A program made the translations under genes and the position numbers. Positions 11,780 through 18,259 of a stretch of DNA of 64,000 bases are shown here, piece after piece. The stretch's first letter is position 1; each line of letters opens with the position of its first letter. The notes beneath the pieces are model-generated. The model did no database searches. It was given only the letters and a program-made list of their open reading frames with translations, and was not told where the DNA came from. The DNA is from a virus. The stretch spans positions 1 to 64,000 of the IMG/VR virus record IMGVR_UViG_3300047445_000406. One strand, given 5' to 3'.

Positions 11780-12079
11780 ATGACTGCTCACACCATCTAC
11801 GTACACGACTCAGACACTGCTCGTGCTCTGTTTGTTGCAGCGACCATCGCACTCATCAAACAGGGCAAGGTCATCGTCATCGACAGCCTGACCTCCTATC
11901 TCAAAGAGATCGAGGACATGACCTTTCCTGTGCTGATTGATGATGCTTTCTATGATCGTCCTACGCAGCGTGTACGCGACCATGGCAGGCCTCCGGCCAA
12001 GCATAGGTACAAATCCTCATCCCTCAATTTAAATCGTCCTGTGGTGCGTGCTATGCGCTCCGTGAACCGCAATCGTTAA
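11780..12079 (+). CDS. small early protein, unknown
   Basis: 99 residues from the ATG at 11780. N-terminal alpha/beta-like half (TIYVHDSDTARALFVAATIALI, GKVIVIDSLTSYLKEI), then a basic tail rich in Arg/Lys (RVRDHGRPPAKHRYKSS, RAMRSVNRNR) that could bind nucleic acid. Three bases after the preceding mini-gene. Not recognised. Confidence 0.65.
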   Translation: MTAHTIYVHDSDTARALFVAATIALIKQGKVIVIDSLTSYLKEIEDMTFPVLIDDAFYDRPTQRVRDHGRPPAKHRYKSSSLNLNRPVVRAMRSVNRNR

Positions 12080-12089
12080 AGGAATCATC

Positions 12090-12287
12090 ATGCAATCTCG
12101 TAACCAGCTCCAAGGCCGTTACACCGGTGCTTTCCGTGGGCACCATACCCGTGACCATTTCAAGACTGGTCGTCATCTGCGCAGTGTCAGTACCTTTAAC
12201 GCCAATCACACGCAGCGTAAGCAGTGGATGATGATCATGCGTAATCTCAAATCCAAACCACCTGTAGTGGATCCCATCCCTTTCTAA
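12090..12287 (+). CDS. small basic protein
   Basis: 65 residues, strongly basic (Arg/His/Lys throughout, e.g. GRYTGAFRGHHTRDHFKTGR), compatible with nucleic-acid binding. Preceded by AAAGGA; a gap of 10 nt on each side from neighbours. Not recognised. Confidence 0.6.
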   Translation: MQSRNQLQGRYTGAFRGHHTRDHFKTGRHLRSVSTFNANHTQRKQWMMIMRNLKSKPPVVDPIPF

Positions 12288-12296
12288 GGAATCCTC

Positions 12297-12578
12297 ATGT
12301 GCCAATTCTGTGAACAAAAACAAGCAGTACAGGATGTCTGTGAATCCCTTGGTGCTGCCATGACCGGGCTTACGGATATCTCTATGGTCCTTGTGGTCGG
12401 GGATGACCAGTCCGAGCCCATGGCTGAAGTACAGCAACGCTCACACCTGATCTGTGGTGCCCTGAAGCTCATGGGCTTCACGGTGCATCCGCATCGCGGC
12501 AATTTCAAACCACAGCACTTCATCACCGTGCTGTTCCAAACCAATCCGGGATCCAATCCATCCCACTATCGTCACTAG
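12297..12578 (+). CDS. small cysteine-containing protein, unknown
   Basis: 93 residues starting MCQFCEQKQ (CxxC), a middle helix (AVQDVCESLGAAM), an acidic stretch (VVGDDQSEPMAEVQ) and a His-rich end (HPHRGNFKPQHF). The N-terminal CxxC could be half of a metal site but there is no clear partner pair. Start supported by AAGGAAT. Confidence 0.6.
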   Translation: MCQFCEQKQAVQDVCESLGAAMTGLTDISMVLVVGDDQSEPMAEVQQRSHLICGALKLMGFTVHPHRGNFKPQHFITVLFQTNPGSNPSHYRH

Positions 12579-12606
12579 TTCATTCATTAATCTAAGGAGC
12601 TACATC

Positions 12607-12789
12607 ATGTCCATGATCCGCACCCTCATCTGCCTGCCACTCATGGTAATCATGTGGCTCTTGCAGACCTTGTTCCAAGTTGCATCCATCCTTGTCATGC
12701 TCCCAGTGGGCGTGGCAATCGCTATCGCTGTGGGCTGCCTGCATGCCTACGAACACTTCACCAAACCAAAGAAGCAGGAGATCAAATAA
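12607..12789 (+). CDS. small membrane protein
   Basis: 60 residues, hydrophobic for most of its length (LICLPLMVIMWLLQTLFQV; ILVMLPVGVAIAIAVGCL) and ending in a Lys-rich tail. AAGGAG is in front. Its stop overlaps the start of the next gene by one base (TAATG). Unknown function. Confidence 0.65.
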   Translation: MSMIRTLICLPLMVIMWLLQTLFQVASILVMLPVGVAIAIAVGCLHAYEHFTKPKKQEIK

Positions 12790-13052
12790 TGCGCCTATCC
12801 TTTCTCGCACCCAGTGCAAAAGTAGCTAAGCCTGTGCTTACCACAGCACTGGTCAACATCGTTAAGCTGGCCAGCACCATCGGTACTCTGTGCACCAGCA
12901 ACCTGATCATGGATCTGGCTGTAGGCAATCACTACAGCTATCCTGATTACCAGATGCTGTGCAAGTGCCTTGACCGTATCCCTGAAACCGAGAAGGCCTA
13001 TGCTAACAAGGTGCAGGAACATTCCCAACTTTCCCTGATGGAGATCTACTGA
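12789..13052 (+). CDS. small early protein, unknown
   Basis: 87 residues, translationally coupled to the preceding membrane gene. A hydrophobic/helical first half (LTTALVNIVKLASTIGTL) and a polar second half with Cys-Lys-Cys (LCKCLDRIPETEKAYAN). Not recognised. Confidence 0.6.
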   Translation: MRLSFLAPSAKVAKPVLTTALVNIVKLASTIGTLCTSNLIMDLAVGNHYSYPDYQMLCKCLDRIPETEKAYANKVQEHSQLSLMEIY

Positions 13053-13054
13053 TT

Positions 13055-13345
13055 ATGTGCGACCCAGTCCCAAACCATGATCCGAATGACTATGTCATCA
13101 CTGCCTATGACAAACGTTGGATCAGTGCAATGAACCTCAAGTTCACCTCATTAGAAGAACTGCTGGACTACAGCTGGGCACGTGATCTGGAATATCCACA
13201 CGTGAAGTATTATGCCCAGGCCAACGGTCTGGTACTGACTGACCATGATTTCTTCCAAGGCTACAGCGATCGCCAAGCCAAGATGGAAGAACACTTCCGC
13301 ACCGCTGCCGCCGTACAAGGTGGCATCCTGTCCGAGCATTTCTAA
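13055..13345 (+). CDS. small acidic early protein, unknown
   Basis: 96 residues, 2 nt after the previous stop. Acidic and aromatic (CDPVPNHDPNDYVITAYDKR, FTSLEELLDYSWARDLEY, LTDHDFFQGYSDRQ). The acidic, helix-rich character recalls DNA-mimic or inhibitor proteins of phage early regions, but no family is recognised. Confidence 0.6.
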   Translation: MCDPVPNHDPNDYVITAYDKRWISAMNLKFTSLEELLDYSWARDLEYPHVKYYAQANGLVLTDHDFFQGYSDRQAKMEEHFRTAAAVQGGILSEHF

Positions 13346-13372
13346 GCCGGTACCATCTCTGTCCTCTCTGCT

Positions 13373-13400
13373 CTATGGGCTTCGCCCATGGGGTGGATGG
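13373..13400 (+). promoter_or_regulatory. N4-type hairpin early promoter, copy 3
   Basis: The best copy: ATGGGC TTC GCCCAT (13375-13389), stem extendable through G-T pairs, then GGGGTGGAT. The predicted start is near 13393. The 143-nt leader to the next gene contains a long-range 8-bp stem GGTGTGCC (13399-13406) / GGCACACC (13474-13481). Confidence 0.7.
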
Positions 13401-13535
13401 TGTGCCATGTCCCCAATGCCTGCTCGCGCTGTGTGAGCCTTCCTGCCTCCTCTGGTTGCGGGTTGGTGTTGTTGGCACACCTTCTCTCTTTCATCTCCTA
13501 TCTCTATCATCTCTATTCACTGTAAAGGAACCATC

Positions 13536-13865
13536 ATGGCCTTCGATACCAACAACGGCAGCACCGTAACCCGCAATGGCAATAGCAATGCCGGTGCCCA
13601 ATCCTCTGGCAACGACAACTGGAAGGCTGAATCCTTCCTCAACATCTACCTGCCGTCGGCGGGTGGTGGCCGTGTCAAGCTGGGTGCCATCCCGCTGAAG
13701 AAGGACAAGCCACGCGAGAAGCAGCTGTCCGACTGGCTGCGTGAAGACTCCGAAGACAAGGTACGCCTGAACAAGCTGCTGCTGTCCCTGATCATCGAGT
13801 TCAATCCGGCCGAGCAAACCGACGCCAACAACTTCGCGCTGTTCGGCGAAGATCCGGCTGTATAA
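13536..13865 (+). CDS. conserved small phage protein, function unknown
   Basis: 109 residues. The N-terminus is polar and Asn/Gly/Ser-rich and probably disordered. The core (WKAESFLNIYLPS, GRVKLGAIPLKKDKPREKQL, LNKLLLSLIIEFNPAE) follows the pattern of a small beta-rich family I recall from many phages (sequence of the type SFLNIYLP...KLG.IPL). Strong start after TAAAGGAA. It is the only gene between early-promoter copies 3 and 4 and ends at a strong terminator, so it is probably highly expressed. Confidence 0.7.
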   Translation: MAFDTNNGSTVTRNGNSNAGAQSSGNDNWKAESFLNIYLPSAGGGRVKLGAIPLKKDKPREKQLSDWLREDSEDKVRLNKLLLSLIIEFNPAEQTDANNFALFGEDPAV

Positions 13866-13969
13866 GCCTTACCATCATCATCGCCTCAGTAGGGCTGCCC
13901 TCTACCGCATCGGGCGCGTCGGCAGCCTCATACCAAAACCACCATGCAGATAGCATGGGGTTTATGACA

Positions 13970-14010
13970 CCACCATTCCCTTGCGAATCAAGGGGTGGTG
14001 GCTCTTTTTT
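13970..14010 (+). terminator. strong intrinsic terminator
   Basis: A 13-bp stem with one bulge (CCACCATTCCCTTG / CAAGGGGTGGTGG) followed by six T. It closes the transcription unit started at promoter copy 3; promoter copy 4 begins 30 nt later. A second, tract-less hairpin lies at about 13936-13961. Confidence 0.85.
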
Positions 14011-14040
14011 ATTTGACCACAGTAGACAGTTGAGTTACAG

Positions 14041-14068
14041 CATGGGCCTCCGGCCATGGTGTGGTGTA
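14041..14068 (+). promoter_or_regulatory. N4-type hairpin early promoter, copy 4
   Basis: GGCC TCC GGCC with outer CATG/CATG pairing (one bulged G), then TGTGGTG. The loop TCC (template GGA) is the classic N4 vRNAP loop. The predicted start is near 14061, 40 nt before the gp14-like gene. Confidence 0.65.
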
Positions 14069-14100
14069 GCTGGACTCACATTTAAACCAAGGAGTAAATC

Positions 14101-14481
14101 ATGATCTTCGTATTCGGCAGCAATCTCGCAGGTGTCCACGGTGCTGGCGCCGCACGCTATGCACTGGAACATGAAGGTGCAGAGTGGGGCTATGGTGTTG
14201 GCCAGATCGGCAACAGCTATGCCATCCCAACCAAGGATTACAAGATCAACAGTCTGCCCTTGGATATCATCAAGTTTCACGTACAGGTCTTCATCAGCTA
14301 TGCCGATCTACATCCTGAACTGGAATTCAAGGTGACACGCATCGGCTGTGGACTGGCTGGCTTCACCGATGAACAGATCGCACCACTGTTCGAGCGTGCA
14401 CCCAACAACTGCCTGTTTGACACCGCATGGCAGGACTATCTGGATTGCCGTCATTCCCGCAAATACTGGGGCCATCAGTAA
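14101..14481 (+). CDS. macro-domain-like protein, N4 gp14-like
   Basis: 126 residues. The start MIFVFGSNLAGVHGAGAAR is the glycine-rich ADP-ribose-binding-type loop of a macro-related phage family. It continues with YGVGQIGNSYAIPTKD and RIGCGLAGFTDEQIAPLFE. Macro domains bind or hydrolyse ADP-ribose derivatives; activity here is unproven. In N4-like phages this gene (gp14) stands just before the split RNA polymerase, as here. Directly downstream of early promoter copy 4. Confidence 0.85.
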   Translation: MIFVFGSNLAGVHGAGAARYALEHEGAEWGYGVGQIGNSYAIPTKDYKINSLPLDIIKFHVQVFISYADLHPELEFKVTRIGCGLAGFTDEQIAPLFERAPNNCLFDTAWQDYLDCRHSRKYWGHQ

Positions 14482-14493
14482 GTAGGAGCCATC

Positions 14494-14724
14494 ATGTCTA
14501 CTTCTTACTTGTTTCATCCTCAGCGACTTCCACAAATACTGACTGATAAAAAGATACTTCCCAGATTGACACGGGAAGATGACCTACTGTATGCGGACTG
14601 CTACCTGCACACTGAAAACAACGGTCTGTGGTGGAGATACTGGACACAGGGGCATCAGTGGAAGGGTGTCGAATACAAAGATGTACCGGGCGAATTCAAA
14701 GCCCAGCTTTTACTTATCAAATAA
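14494..14724 (+). CDS. small 'KAQ-LL tail' protein A
   Basis: 76 residues, a likely member of the tandem family described at 15638-16991. It ends VPGEFKAQLLLIK after a tryptophan-rich stretch (GLWWRYWTQG). Located between the gp14-like gene and the first RNA polymerase gene, 11 nt before the latter. Good site GTAGGAG. No known function. Confidence 0.7.
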   Translation: MSTSYLFHPQRLPQILTDKKILPRLTREDDLLYADCYLHTENNGLWWRYWTQGHQWKGVEYKDVPGEFKAQLLLIK

Positions 14725-14735
14725 GGAGTTTCACC

Positions 14736-15686
14736 ATGCCCAATATGGATCTTTTGAACCAAGAGTTCAACGAGAAACGGTACAACCGCAAGTACATCGA
14801 CGGTTATATCCGCAAAGAGATCTTGGCTAATCCAGACATGGTGGCCAAGATGCAGGATGGCGTATCCCGGTTAATCCAGTGGATGCAGGGCAGTTACTAC
14901 CCTTCCAAGGACAACCGCATTGCCCAGCTGCGAGGACTGGATCTGCAGGCACTAGTACTGGATGTGTTTGTCGGTGTGGCCTACTGCCAGACGCCGGAGC
15001 TATTCACGTCAGTGACCGCACAGCTGGCGGGCAGGCTGGGTTTCAGCGACAAGACGGCCGCCATTACCACGGTGGCCGAGATCACCGCCATCCTGTGCTA
15101 CACCGATGCCTTCGACATCCGCAAGGCCAGCAAGATGGCCAGCCTTGAGGTAGTTTCCTGCATCCCACTTAGTGTCGGCTTGGTGGACTTCGTCATCAAC
15201 TCCCAGTACCTGCCGCCGATGGTGTGCGAGCCACAGCACCTGAAGCACAACTTCAGCAGTGGCTACCTGACGCACAACGATTCATTGATCCTTGGCGGGC
15301 CGATCAACCACCACGATGGGGACATCTGTCTGGACGTGCTCAACACCATGAACAAGGTGGCACTGAAGCTGGATCTGGACTTCCTGTGCACCGTGGAGGA
15401 AGAGCCCACGTTTGCCTTGGACACCGAAGACAAACGCATGCAGTGGGAGAATTTCAAGAAGCAGTCATATCGCTTCTACGACCTGATACAAAGCCAAGGT
15501 AACCGCTTCTACCTGACGCACAAGGTGGACAAGCGGGGCCGCATCTATGCCCAGGGCTACCACATCACCACGCAGGGTACTGCGTTCAAGAAGGCCATGC
15601 TGGAACTGGCAGAGCCTGAATATATCGAAGGAGTGCCATGTCCAACATGTCCAAGCGCATCTACTACTTCCACGACAAACAGCTGA
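14736..15686 (+). CDS. RNA polymerase II N-terminal subunit, N4 gp15-like
   Basis: 316 residues from the ATG after AAGGAG. It corresponds to the middle part of a T7-type single-subunit polymerase up to the first catalytic Asp: VDKRGRIYAQ (Asp265) matches the T7 Asp537 motif DWRGRVYA, and TTQGTAFKKAMLELAEP matches T7 NPQGNDMTKGLLTLAKG. It must pair with the downstream subunit (17015-18259) to make an active enzyme, which in N4 reads middle genes. The last about 16 residues (VPCPTCPSASTTSTTNS) overlap the next gene's start in another frame and look non-native. Confidence 0.85.
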   Translation: MPNMDLLNQEFNEKRYNRKYIDGYIRKEILANPDMVAKMQDGVSRLIQWMQGSYYPSKDNRIAQLRGLDLQALVLDVFVGVAYCQTPELFTSVTAQLAGRLGFSDKTAAITTVAEITAILCYTDAFDIRKASKMASLEVVSCIPLSVGLVDFVINSQYLPPMVCEPQHLKHNFSSGYLTHNDSLILGGPINHHDGDICLDVLNTMNKVALKLDLDFLCTVEEEPTFALDTEDKRMQWENFKKQSYRFYDLIQSQGNRFYLTHKVDKRGRIYAQGYHITTQGTAFKKAMLELAEPEYIEGVPCPTCPSASTTSTTNS

Positions 15687-15856
15687 TTCCCAAACCAGTA
15701 GAAGGGCAGGAAGCTCATGGATCCTACTGCTTCCGCCCTGATCTGGAACCGGAATGGCTGATCCGAATCACCTATGGTGGCACACCTATGTGGGTATCGG
15801 CCAATGCCTTCGGTATCCCGCCAGAGGTCAAGGCCATGGCCCTCTTACTCAAATAA
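15638..15856 (+). CDS. small 'KAQ-LL tail' protein B
   Basis: 72 residues. It starts inside the 3' end of the RNAP subunit gene (48-nt overlap, other frame) behind GAAGGAG. An aromatic middle (IYYFHDKQL, MWVSANAFG) and the C-terminal family motif IPPEVKAMALLLK. First of five consecutive small genes separating the polymerase halves. Function unknown. Confidence 0.7.
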   Translation: MSNMSKRIYYFHDKQLIPKPVEGQEAHGSYCFRPDLEPEWLIRITYGGTPMWVSANAFGIPPEVKAMALLLK

Positions 15857-15866
15857 AGGAACCAAC

Positions 15867-16076
15867 ATGTCCCTGAAAGTTCAAGCCTTTTACGGTGCCC
15901 AGTACTTGGGCAACGAAACCACGATCGATGATATCGACCGCATGCCGGACGATACCTACCTGCTGATGAATGGTCACTGGTACCAGAAGGTGAACAGTGC
16001 CACGGCACGCATCGCCAAGGTGGATCTGCCAGCGGAGATCAAAGCGCAGCTGGCCCTGTTGGGGATTGCGCCATGA
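15867..16076 (+). CDS. small 'KAQ-LL tail' protein C
   Basis: 69 residues from the ATG after AAAGGAA. Contains YLLMNGHWYQKV (shared NG-x-W-Y element) and ends LPAEIKAQLALLGIAP, the clearest version of the family motif. Its stop overlaps the next start (ATGA). Function unknown. Confidence 0.75.
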   Translation: MSLKVQAFYGAQYLGNETTIDDIDRMPDDTYLLMNGHWYQKVNSATARIAKVDLPAEIKAQLALLGIAP

Positions 16077-16357
16077 ATATCAACAGCAACGGTGAGATCA
16101 GCTTCGCCAATGGAGGCCCGGTCAAGGACTACCACGTGTTCATGGGTACCGAGTATCTGGGTACCTTGGATATGGTCTGGCTGAAAATCTATAACAGTGC
16201 TTTGCTGGTGGATATGAACAAGTACTACCAGACTGCCTTCATCTACCACCACACCAACCGACCAGTGCATTTCAAATGGTGGCGGCCTGATGGGACACCG
16301 CGGAGCAGTGGCGATGTGCCGAAAGCATTCATCGTCATGGCCACGCTGGTGACATGA
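16073..16357 (+). CDS. small 'KAQ-LL tail' protein D (divergent)
   Basis: 94 residues, coupled to both neighbours by 4-nt overlaps. Aromatic core (YHVFMGTEYLGTLDMVWLK, FKWWRPDG). The tail VPKAFIVMATLVT is a degraded form of the family motif. EYLG recalls QYLG of protein C, supporting common descent. Confidence 0.65.
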   Translation: MNINSNGEISFANGGPVKDYHVFMGTEYLGTLDMVWLKIYNSALLVDMNKYYQTAFIYHHTNRPVHFKWWRPDGTPRSSGDVPKAFIVMATLVT

Positions 16358-16722
16358 TGAACCGATCCAACATCCGATGGAGGACATGGATGAACCCAGA
16401 AGACAACAGCATCACAATCAATATGACTTTTGATGACGGAGCAAGCTGCAAATGGTACCTGTTCGTCAACAACAAGTTCATTGGCAGCAGTGATGGCGAC
16501 GGTACCTTGACGGTCAAGGAACTACCACCATACGTAATCCATGTGTGTTATCAGGATCCGAACTTCGGCTACGTCTGGAAGAACCAGTCAAACCAGCCAG
16601 TGAAGCTGAAGGCCTTGCACCCGGAACTTCAGGCAGCAGCTCTACTGCTTGGCTTGAATGATGCGATGGATGCTGCCGTCAATACTGGTGGTGTCAACTG
16701 GCTGAAGAAGAGGCAACCATGA
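16354..16722 (+). CDS. small 'KAQ-LL tail' protein E
   Basis: 122 residues, the longest member. Start taken at the first ATG of the overlap; a second in-frame ATG at 16390 (MNPEDNSIT) follows a GGAGG-like site and may be the true start. Contains KWYLFVNNKFIGSSDGDG and YVWKNQSNQPVKLK, then LHPELQAAALLLGL, the motif with about 29 extra residues after it. Function unknown. Confidence 0.65.
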   Translation: MMNRSNIRWRTWMNPEDNSITINMTFDDGASCKWYLFVNNKFIGSSDGDGTLTVKELPPYVIHVCYQDPNFGYVWKNQSNQPVKLKALHPELQAAALLLGLNDAMDAAVNTGGVNWLKKRQP

Positions 16723-16991
16723 ACAAGTTCATCATCATCACCATGTTCGACCACGAGATCCACGAGTACCCGGAGCATCTCCCCATGCCACTGCCTACCC
16801 ATCTCAGTGTCACCGATGCCTATGGCTACATGGTGAATACCGGGCAGTGGTATCGACTGTGGAAAGGGCTGGAAACCAGCCGTATGTACACTGGCGGCCG
16901 CACCAATTTCATCATGTCCCGCAAATGGGCCGAGCGTCCTCCGGACAAAATACCAGGCCGCATCAAAGCCCAAGTCACCCTACTCGCTTAA
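16719..16991 (+). CDS. small 'KAQ-LL tail' protein F
   Basis: 90 residues, starting in a 4-nt overlap with E. Contains MVNTGQWYRLWKG (compare NGHWYQKV in C and NGLWWRYW in A) and ends IPGRIKAQVTLLA. Last of the five-gene cassette, 23 nt before the second RNA polymerase gene. Function unknown. Confidence 0.7.
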   Translation: MNKFIIITMFDHEIHEYPEHLPMPLPTHLSVTDAYGYMVNTGQWYRLWKGLETSRMYTGGRTNFIMSRKWAERPPDKIPGRIKAQVTLLA

Positions 16992-17014
16992 ACACTTAAA
17001 CCAAGGAACCAATC

Positions 17015-18259
17015 ATGGAACAATTCACCGGCTGGCAGTACATGCTGATCGATCTGGCCAACCATTTTGGTCATGACAAGCTGCTCTTCAGTGAGCGCAT
17101 CAAGTGGGCCGAGGACAACCTCACCCAGTTGGAACAACTCGCTGACCAAGCGGAGAACAAACCGCTGTACCACAAGGCAGTGCAGGCCATACGCAAGGTA
17201 CAGGCTGGTGAGCCCACCGGCCACATGGTCGGTTTCGATGCCTGCTGCTCCGGCATTCAGGTCATGAGTGCGCTCACCGGCTGTATTGCAGGTGCCACCA
17301 ACACCGGGCTGGTGGATCCGAATGTGCGGGCCGATGCCTATGGCCAGCTCACCTCGGTCATGCAAAACCTGCTGGGTTCTGGCTTCGGTGTCTCCCGCGG
17401 CGATGCCAAGCAGGCACTGATGACTTCGTTCTACGGCTCGAAACAGGAGCCGATCAACATCTTCGGTGCCGATACTCCGGAACTGTCGGCCTTCTATCAG
17501 GCCGCAGCAACGATCGCACCGGGTGCATGGGAACTGCTGCAGGATCTCTTGGCTTCATGGCAGCCGTATGCACTGGAGCACCGCTGGAAGCTGCCAGATG
17601 GTTTCGATGCCCGCGTCAAGGTGATGGAGAAACTGGACTCCCGCATCGAAGTCGATGAACTGGACCACGCCACCTTTACCTACGAGTTCTATGAGAACAA
17701 GGGCACCAAGACTGGCCTGTCCAATGTCGCCAACGTGGTGCACAGCGTGGATGCCTACGTGCTGCGCTGCATCCACCGTCGCTGCAACTATGACCGTGAG
17801 ATGGTAGAACAGGCTCACAAGCTGATTTCTTACACCTTGGGCCAGCGGGGCATGCTGCGCTGTGGCCACACCGGTAGCACGGGGGAACACTCCAAGGTGG
17901 ACTACTACGTGGGGCAGATGGATCGCTCTGGCATGGTTGATGTGGTGATCCTGCCCCATCTCACTGAATCCAGTATCCGGACGGTGCCTACGCTGTACCT
18001 ACGTCAGCTGGAAGCCATTTGCCTTACCATGCTGGCTCACAATCCCTTCAACGTAGTCACTATCCACGATGAGTTCAAGTGTGGTCCCAACCACATGAAC
18101 CACCTGCGCCAGCACTACATCAACATCTTCAGTGAACTGGCCGAGAGCCGTCTGCTGGACGATATCCTGTCGCAGCTGCATGGCGTACCGGGCACCTTCC
18201 ACAAGCTGTCCAACACCCTGCCACAACTGATCAAAGGATCCAACTATGCTCTCTCCTGA
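17015..18259 (+). CDS. RNA polymerase II C-terminal subunit, N4 gp16-like
   Basis: 414 residues, the palm and fingers of a T7-type polymerase. GWQYMLIDLANHFG...FSERIKWAEDN aligns with the T7 segment that follows the gp15 end point, so the two genes split the protein cleanly near T7 residue 565. Then GFDACCSGIQ (73-82), GVSRGDAKQALMTSFYGSK with Arg128, Lys132 and Tyr140 (T7 Arg627, Lys631, Tyr639), NVVHSVDAYVLR, and TIHDEF with His351/Asp352 (T7 His811/Asp812). All catalytic residues are kept. Probably transcribes the middle genes. Confidence 0.92.
   Translation: MEQFTGWQYMLIDLANHFGHDKLLFSERIKWAEDNLTQLEQLADQAENKPLYHKAVQAIRKVQAGEPTGHMVGFDACCSGIQVMSALTGCIAGATNTGLVDPNVRADAYGQLTSVMQNLLGSGFGVSRGDAKQALMTSFYGSKQEPINIFGADTPELSAFYQAAATIAPGAWELLQDLLASWQPYALEHRWKLPDGFDARVKVMEKLDSRIEVDELDHATFTYEFYENKGTKTGLSNVANVVHSVDAYVLRCIHRRCNYDREMVEQAHKLISYTLGQRGMLRCGHTGSTGEHSKVDYYVGQMDRSGMVDVVILPHLTESSIRTVPTLYLRQLEAICLTMLAHNPFNVVTIHDEFKCGPNHMNHLRQHYINIFSELAESRLLDDILSQLHGVPGTFHKLSNTLPQLIKGSNYALS

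Follow-up and report, generated by a model that had tools for sequence, protein, structure and literature searches.

What are the small genes that separate the two halves of an N4-type RNA polymerase, and do they belong together? The question is raised by a stretch of viral DNA comprising bases 1 to 64,000 of the 77,895-base IMG/VR record IMGVR_UViG_3300047445_000406 (hereafter the window), whose source is, judged by its sequence, an N4-like phage. Five small open reading frames (ORFs) lie between the genes for the RNAP1 and RNAP2 subunits of RNAPII, and a sixth lies directly upstream of RNAP1. Sequence comparisons place all six in one family that recurs at the polymerase genes of N4-like phages and whose members share a C-terminal tail, P-x-E-h-K/R-x-x-L-L-L.

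Six small ORFs as members of one family

Membership was assessed with a hidden Markov model (HMM) built from 46 sequences of relatives with zero rows from the window, and applied to the window's ORFs of 50 amino acids (aa) or longer (n = 667). The six small ORFs took the top six places, in agreement with the initial annotation, which had described them as one diverging family; the seventh-ranked ORF (expectation value (E) 0.044) has no tail and was taken for a chance match. When each ORF was shuffled 2000 times, the real score was attained by no shuffle for five ORFs and by one for the ORF at 16719. All six were taken as family members, with the least support for 16719. The locus is organized as follows:

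14494 to 14724, + strand: family member, 76 aa, stopping 11 nt upstream of RNAP1 (HMM without window rows, E 3.5e-12; AlphaFold2 predicted local distance difference test score (pLDDT) 90.3, predicted template modelling score (pTM) 0.78)
14736 to 15686, + strand: RNAP1 (N4 gp15-like), the small half of RNAPII (PHROG 2166, 9e-100; 6dt7_A, 2e-29)
15638 to 15856, + strand: family member, 72 aa (same HMM, E 9.1e-9)
15867 to 16076, + strand: family member, 69 aa (same HMM, E 0.0026; BLASTP 34% against L006:6763, E 5e-8)
16073 to 16357, + strand: family member, 94 aa (same HMM, E 0.0043)
16354 to 16722, + strand: family member, 122 aa (110 aa if started at ATG 16390), with an extension past the tail motif (same HMM, E 0.0016)
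16719 to 16991, + strand: family member, 90 aa, the least certain of the six (same HMM, E 0.011; 1/2000 shuffles equal the real score)
17015 to 18259, + strand: RNAP2 (N4 gp16-like), the large half of RNAPII (PHROG 2051, 1e-149; 6dt7_B, 3e-58)
13536 to 13865, + strand: homolog of LUZ7 gp14 (PHROG 6271, 1.5e-12; pairwise 29% identity, 23/80 columns identical, E 5e-9)

The five ORFs in the gap have the places and lengths initially annotated, and the sixth copy noted ahead of RNAP1 is the best HMM match of all. Their description as overlapping genes applies to three of the four junctions (4-nt overlaps each); the first junction has a 10-nt spacer. The window encodes an N4-type heterodimeric RNAPII, as both genes match the RNAP1 and RNAP2 models and chains A and B of the solved structure 6dt7. 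Residues 6–120 of RNAP2 align with residues 456–582 of T7 RNAP (weak, E 0.1), so the polymerase is probably split near T7 residue 450 and not near residue 565, where it had first been placed. In the window, 49 nt of the RNAP1 frame (15638–15686) lie inside the first small gene. The RNAP1 alignment of most relatives stops at about residue 301, which corresponds to the start of this gene and looks like a junction scar.

The initial annotation did not recognize the family, and the family libraries likewise yielded no model shared among members in Pfam, NCBIfam or PADLOC. Single-sequence PHROG searches of the six ORFs returned nothing significant, and Pfam returned one match to them, below its cut-off (BetaGal_ABD2 against the ORF at 16354, E 0.00028, 22 bits, cut-off 23). 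Membership in DUF7435 or phrog_1387 was rejected, as only the ORF at 16719 matches (13.0 bits, cut-off 27, E 0.13; phrog_1387, E 0.07). A homing endonuclease or intron cassette was rejected as well: at E ≤ 0.1, neither the Pfam and PHROG matches of 50 members nor the NCBIfam matches of 66 members include one named as an HNH, GIY-YIG or similar domain, four of the matched PHROGs being without description. Known defence-system families in PADLOC were discarded after four of them were matched, each by one of 66 members (best E 0.0023, DpdB). Searches of three members against a phage collection with tblastn gave best E-values of 3, 3 and 7, and three single-member searches of viral contigs, sensitive to close relatives only, found no contigs beyond those obtained by the RNAP searches.

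Distribution across N4-like phages

Related loci (L numbers) were gathered via RNAP1 and RNAP2 in sets of 24, 53 and 80, the last being the best 80 of 91 relatives, and 87 of the 88 distinct RNAP2 loci were used (L007, which has no RNAP1, was left out). Distances between RNAP1 and RNAP2 were measured between tblastn alignments, and chains of ORFs were called automatically. As loci were selected by their polymerase genes, proximity to these genes is partly built in, and a search of 41 whole records served as control.

The distance between RNAP1 and RNAP2 ranged from 3 to 4,674 bp over the 87 loci and was below 120 bp in 20 of them. Many gap ORFs of related loci carry the same tail, and scanning 15,324 ORFs (1.05 Mb) with an iterated profile yielded 119 matches in 42 of the 87 loci, 110 of them between the RNAP genes, eight upstream of RNAP1 (by at most 276 bp) and one overlapping the start of RNAP2. 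Loci with matches hold between one copy (17 loci) and 15 copies (L025), and the median member size is 77 aa. The family is, on this sequence evidence, not local to the window. Gap ORFs were called in 67 loci (n = 212); 104 match the family and 108, about half, do not.

Because the profile had been trained on gap ORFs, a two-fold cross-validation was performed, in which + strand ORFs of 50–130 aa were scored with an HMM built from the other loci (the window was tested twice). At p ≤ 1e-5, matches comprised 109/230 ORFs in the gap, 9/280 up to 1 kb upstream, 0/623 farther upstream, 1/765 downstream, and 2/127 overlapping the RNAP genes. A model from all gap members additionally detected four likely members 129–572 bp past RNAP2 (L104, L159, L120, L143; p 1.3e-6 to 2.8e-4) and two doubtful matches elsewhere, namely L124:8946-9305 (p 1e-4, no tail) and L141:1110-1328, an upstream ORF of weak family similarity (p 6e-4, one sequence).

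The profile used on whole records had 66 rows, including the six window rows, LIT1, phCDa, ZC08 and several of the searched records, whose matches are hence not independent; the tests by the HMM without window rows, by the cross-validation and by the HMM without cultured-phage rows (below) are independent. The whole-record profile returned 85 matches in 20 of the 41 records, with 64 between the RNAP genes, 20 upstream of RNAP1 (17 to 2,883 bp) and one elsewhere. This single off-site match, G015:7234-7446 (L178 1017-1310; E 0.0012), has a tail-like end and adjoins a larger ORF on the same strand. Of the whole-record matches, 84/85 are located at the RNAP genes. No family match was found in 21 of the 41 whole records, including those of LUZ7 and CB1. 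Relatives without a match retain both polymerase genes, which are adjacent in L010, L012, L014, L015, L019 and CB1 and enclose one non-matching ORF in LUZ7; the enzyme therefore evidently works without the family there.

Predicted fold and conserved residues

AlphaFold2 modelling of the 14494 protein with 49 family rows predicted a beta-beta-alpha-beta-beta-beta-alpha domain (pLDDT 90.3, pTM 0.78) composed of strands 4–8 and 11–16, a helix at 28–33, strands 37–40, 45–50 and 55–59, and a last helix at 66–75. The common tail coincides with this last helix (block means 97 and 93) and is thus, according to the model, the C-terminal helix of the domain. Conserved columns consist of aromatic residues (positions 5, 7, 37, 46 and 56), hydrophobic residues, Pro65 (48/49), Glu67 (34/49), a basic residue at 69 (Lys/Arg; 35/49) and Leu73 (47/49), and a catalytic set is not visible among them. 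Column entropy was 2.03 bits for residues 61–76 versus 3.02 bits elsewhere.

The top four Foldseek matches among predicted viral structures were Pseudomonas phage proteins, two of phCDa and one each of phi176 and ZC08, with E-values from 0.011 to 0.064 (none reaching 0.001) and probabilities from 0.92 to 1.00. The records of phCDa and ZC08 assign them to the Schitoviridae; N4-like as well are phi176 and Littlefix (ranks 8 and 12). Against the PDB, a sequence search with the family profile returned no match up to E 10, Foldseek with the 14494 model gave 405 matches at E ≤ 10 (best E 1.1), and a second structural comparison with VIA-align had its best match at Z 3.7 (rmsd 3.0, 65 aligned residues). 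On these comparisons, the predicted fold can be called neither new nor known.

In the gap of L046, whose ORFs are candidate members, most of the 11 ORFs bear the tail. A model from this set's own alignment was of low confidence (pLDDT 52.3), and in a profile comparison with the family the tail alone aligned (P 1.9e-6, probability 89.7%). Likewise, the alignment of the phCDa set to the family profile is confined to the tail.

Selection, divergence and history of the arrays

Leucines of the motif are encoded by all six codons (67, 65, 63, 56, 46 and 33 occurrences), which argues for selection on the tail as protein; a DNA-level repeat as source of the common tail was rejected on this codon diversity. 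All 70 pairs of members at 55–97% identity are between phages and none inside one phage. The ratio of nonsynonymous to synonymous substitution rates (dN/dS), finite in 65 of these 70 pairs (five were saturated), had a median of 0.18 and a maximum of 0.65, and close pairs are under purifying selection. In these pairs, nonsynonymous divergence (pN) was 0.087 in the tail versus 0.219 in the body.

Within arrays, identity had a median of 22% and a maximum of 41% (193 pairs). For 89 members of multi-copy arrays, the best match was in another phage in 71 cases and in the same array in 16 (L025 with 11 and L108 with five only), two being ambiguous. Since best matches are mainly in other phages and within-array identity is low, the arrays appear to be composed mostly of old subtypes, with lineage-specific expansion in few phages. 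Recent local duplication was rejected as the main source. The cassette expansion at this locus put forward in the initial annotation stands insofar as a diverging family occurs in variable number beside the RNAP genes, and falls insofar as expansion was not mainly local.

Isoelectric points (pI) range from 4.3 to 11.0 (below 6 in 59/101 and above 8 in 12/101 members) and are mixed within arrays, e.g., 4.3 to 9.4 in L025; as they are not uniformly low, DNA-mimicking, strongly acidic inhibitors were discarded. On an RNAP2 tree (FastTree only, 78/87 loci, with short, long or broken RNAP2 sequences left out), presence or absence of the family changes at least 10 times, and copy number varies among close relatives (two in L013, six in L018 and two in L031).

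Cultured phages and published descriptions of the junction

An HMM without any cultured-phage row was run against 1,945 ORFs of 13 loci of cultured phages. It gave 11 matches at E ≤ 1, three in LIT1 (ORF18, 5.5e-6; ORF22, 0.029; ORF20, 0.05) and eight in phCDa (seven annotated ORFs and one not annotated; 6.2e-5 for gp42 to 0.37, with gp40 at 0.0028). The eight matches beyond ORF18, gp42 and gp40 span E 0.012 to 0.37. Mostly weak singly, the matches are convincing together as sequence evidence because all lie in two phages and all are upstream of or between the RNAP genes. LIT1 ORF18, ORF20 and ORF22 (phrog_8585, phrog_8597 and phrog_8144) and phCDa gp39, gp40, gp42, gp43 and gp46 thus resemble the window's genes in family match and operon, but are annotated as hypothetical, and identity is very low; in PHROGs, LIT1 ORF18, 20, 21 and 22 and the gap ORF of LUZ7 each fall into a separate family whose function is unknown. 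The unannotated phCDa ORF (L161 4247-4477) lies between gp46 and gp47 and matches the HMM without cultured rows at E 0.06 and a profile that includes ZC08_048 at 0.0011.

ZC08_048 and its ZC03 counterpart also lie upstream of RNAP1 (1.2 and 1.9 kb) and carry the tail, and an 82-aa ZC08 protein ranks third in Foldseek (E 0.06). However, neither ZC08_048 nor the ZC03 protein matches the HMM without cultured rows at E ≤ 1, and other matches came from a profile containing ZC08_048; kinship of the ZC03 and ZC08 proteins to the family is weaker.

That N4-like phages carry small genes in the RNAP1–RNAP2 gap has already been noted in passages of PMC2784036 (2009), PMC3915230 (2014), PMC4837373 (2016) and PMC5418858 (2017), the last giving their count as "zero up to eight"; the gaps compared here hold up to 17 ORFs (L108, eight of them matching). 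In N4 itself, the two genes are 47 bp apart according to PMC2784036, in line with the adjacency assumed initially. In the available passages of these papers, the junction genes are spoken of as small insertions, small genes, HNH or hypothetical genes, with no common family, fold, or upstream or downstream copies. The literature search, to which most subscription papers were external, retrieved no description of the junction genes as one family, nor did the passages of PMC3715699, PMC6027278 and PMC4193335 or a word search of PMC7650795.

Further observations at polymerase loci

Inspection by eye showed an imperfect G+C-rich stem with a T run behind it at window positions 13970–14011, after the gp14-like gene; it is a possible terminator ahead of the RNAP operon and was not listed by the scan for sigma-70-like promoters. 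That scan found one promoter versus 6.0 expected, and a search for perfect 7–8 bp hairpins with 3-base loops in window positions 12000–17100 returned none.

The gaps of L076, L077 and L078 and those of L147 and L151 contain tandem small ORFs of other kinds with other common tails, e.g., K-M-x-x-L-L-D-E (by eye); the L076/L078 small ORFs, which have their own common tail, gave no alignment with the family (probability 0.5%). Upstream ORFs with an internal L-R-T-x-x-L-L-G-like motif were seen by eye in L004 411-1595 (Pectobacterium phage CB1) and L166 2520-4693 (Klebsiella phage P184) and are perhaps a distant or permuted relative. N4-like RNAP1 and RNAP2 (61% and 54% identity) also occur within a 914-kb contig of Xenophilus sp. 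Marseille-Q4582 (L179), possibly as part of an integrated N4-like prophage. The RNAP2 match is in two pieces 827 bp apart in L181 5501-7547, and RNAP2 matches are stretched over more than 2 kb in L026, L030 and L043, in each case as if by insertion.

Proposed role and alternatives

We assign a probability of about 0.5 to the reading that these genes form a dispensable, diversified array of small binding proteins of one fold that act in host takeover or counter-defence. N4 expresses its RNAPII genes early. The six ORFs would be made together with the RNAPII subunits, partly via coupled translation, early in infection. Their products would serve as a toolkit of binding proteins, with the conserved aromatic core and helix as scaffold and with variable strands, loops and charges setting each copy's own partner, most likely a host protein that is inhibited or redirected. 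The polymerase operon would offer a permissive site, at which copies can be gained and lost without harming an essential gene. A binding role is suggested by the structural look of the conserved residues. Mixed pI values within arrays and the lack of near-identical copies favour a different partner per copy, and copy turnover among closely related phages speaks for targets in the host. Large lytic phages such as SPO1 and T4 likewise have host-takeover regions with many small, dispensable, diverged early genes, but those are mostly mutually unrelated, whereas here one fold seems to recur.

Several points weigh against this proposal. The conserved charged pair Glu67 and Lys/Arg69 on the helix could be a common dock instead of part of the fold core, which would indicate one shared partner, and a location almost exclusively at the polymerase could point to a role tied to this enzyme. 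A confident model was obtained for one member only (14494), that of the L046 set having failed, and the function of the array, with any target, interaction or phenotype, is an inference from sequence.

One alternative is that the proteins are accessory factors of RNAPII, each binding RNAP1 or RNAP2 with the helix as common dock and altering promoter choice or activity beside a Drc-like factor. The placement of 84/85 whole-record matches in the gap or ahead of RNAP1 and the four likely copies shortly after RNAP2 (129–572 bp) are consistent with such a role, as is the Drc-like gene upstream. LUZ7 gp14 is Drc, a single-stranded DNA-binding transcription factor. Passages of PMC7845610 describe LUZ7 Drc as interacting with RNAP2 and as taking part in the switch from early to middle transcription. 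The Drc proteins of LUZ7 and relatives are, like the family, small and encoded in the same region (13536 in the window), but differ from it in having a role described in those passages, and the window's homolog scores as background with the family profile (p 0.25, one sequence). However, family matches are missing from 45/87 loci and 21/41 records despite both RNAP genes being present in many, copy number differs between close relatives (L013, L018, L031), and tandem copying alone would account for the linkage, which makes accessory factors an unlikely explanation. A combination of both ideas, in which the proteins would dock via the C-terminal helix on a shared early component of the phage (RNAPII or Drc) and each copy would bind a different host protein with its variable face, the resulting adaptor repertoire gaining and dropping specificities via cassettes at the polymerase operon, appears distinctly improbable.

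We see an equally slim chance that the junction is a hotspot of mobile cassettes, opened by homing endonucleases, with the small genes as passengers that are kept by recombination and not by a function of their own. Endonucleases at or in the RNAP genes have been reported, and such an insertion has been proposed to have split the polymerase (PMC5418858); moreover, the gaps of L082 and L156 each hold one family member together with a long ORF that is HNH-like by eye. Purifying selection in close member pairs and the confidently predicted fold speak against mere passengers, and no member match is named as an endonuclease.

The tail might instead act as a short linear signal or serve to couple translation, with the end of one gene starting the next at the DNA level and the bodies hardly related. 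ATGA overlaps with the next gene end 44 of 104 gap members, an L-G-V-like suffix occurs in 35/44 of these versus 3/42 members with a spacer of 0–30 nt, and the L046 and phCDa sets align to the family profile by the tail only. The suffix, however, sits past the motif, whose codon choice is free, and a Shine-Dalgarno-like word was found in the last codons of just 17/44 overlaps; the suffix seems tied to coupled translation and the helix does not. As the full-length profile and the AlphaFold2 model also indicate a whole domain, this explanation is very improbable. A gene-dosage array of one function, for which the tandem copies could speak, was rejected as barely credible given mixed pI values and no within-array pair above 41% identity (median 22%).

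About half of the "hypothetical proteins" at the long-noted variable junction of N4-like phages can now be recognized as one family, which is marked by a sequence signature, has a predicted fold and also occurs in the cultured phages LIT1 and phCDa. If every copy addresses a host target of its own, the arrays would be a catalogue of small proteins acting on bacterial functions, and copy turnover among close phages would point to the copies that matter for each host.

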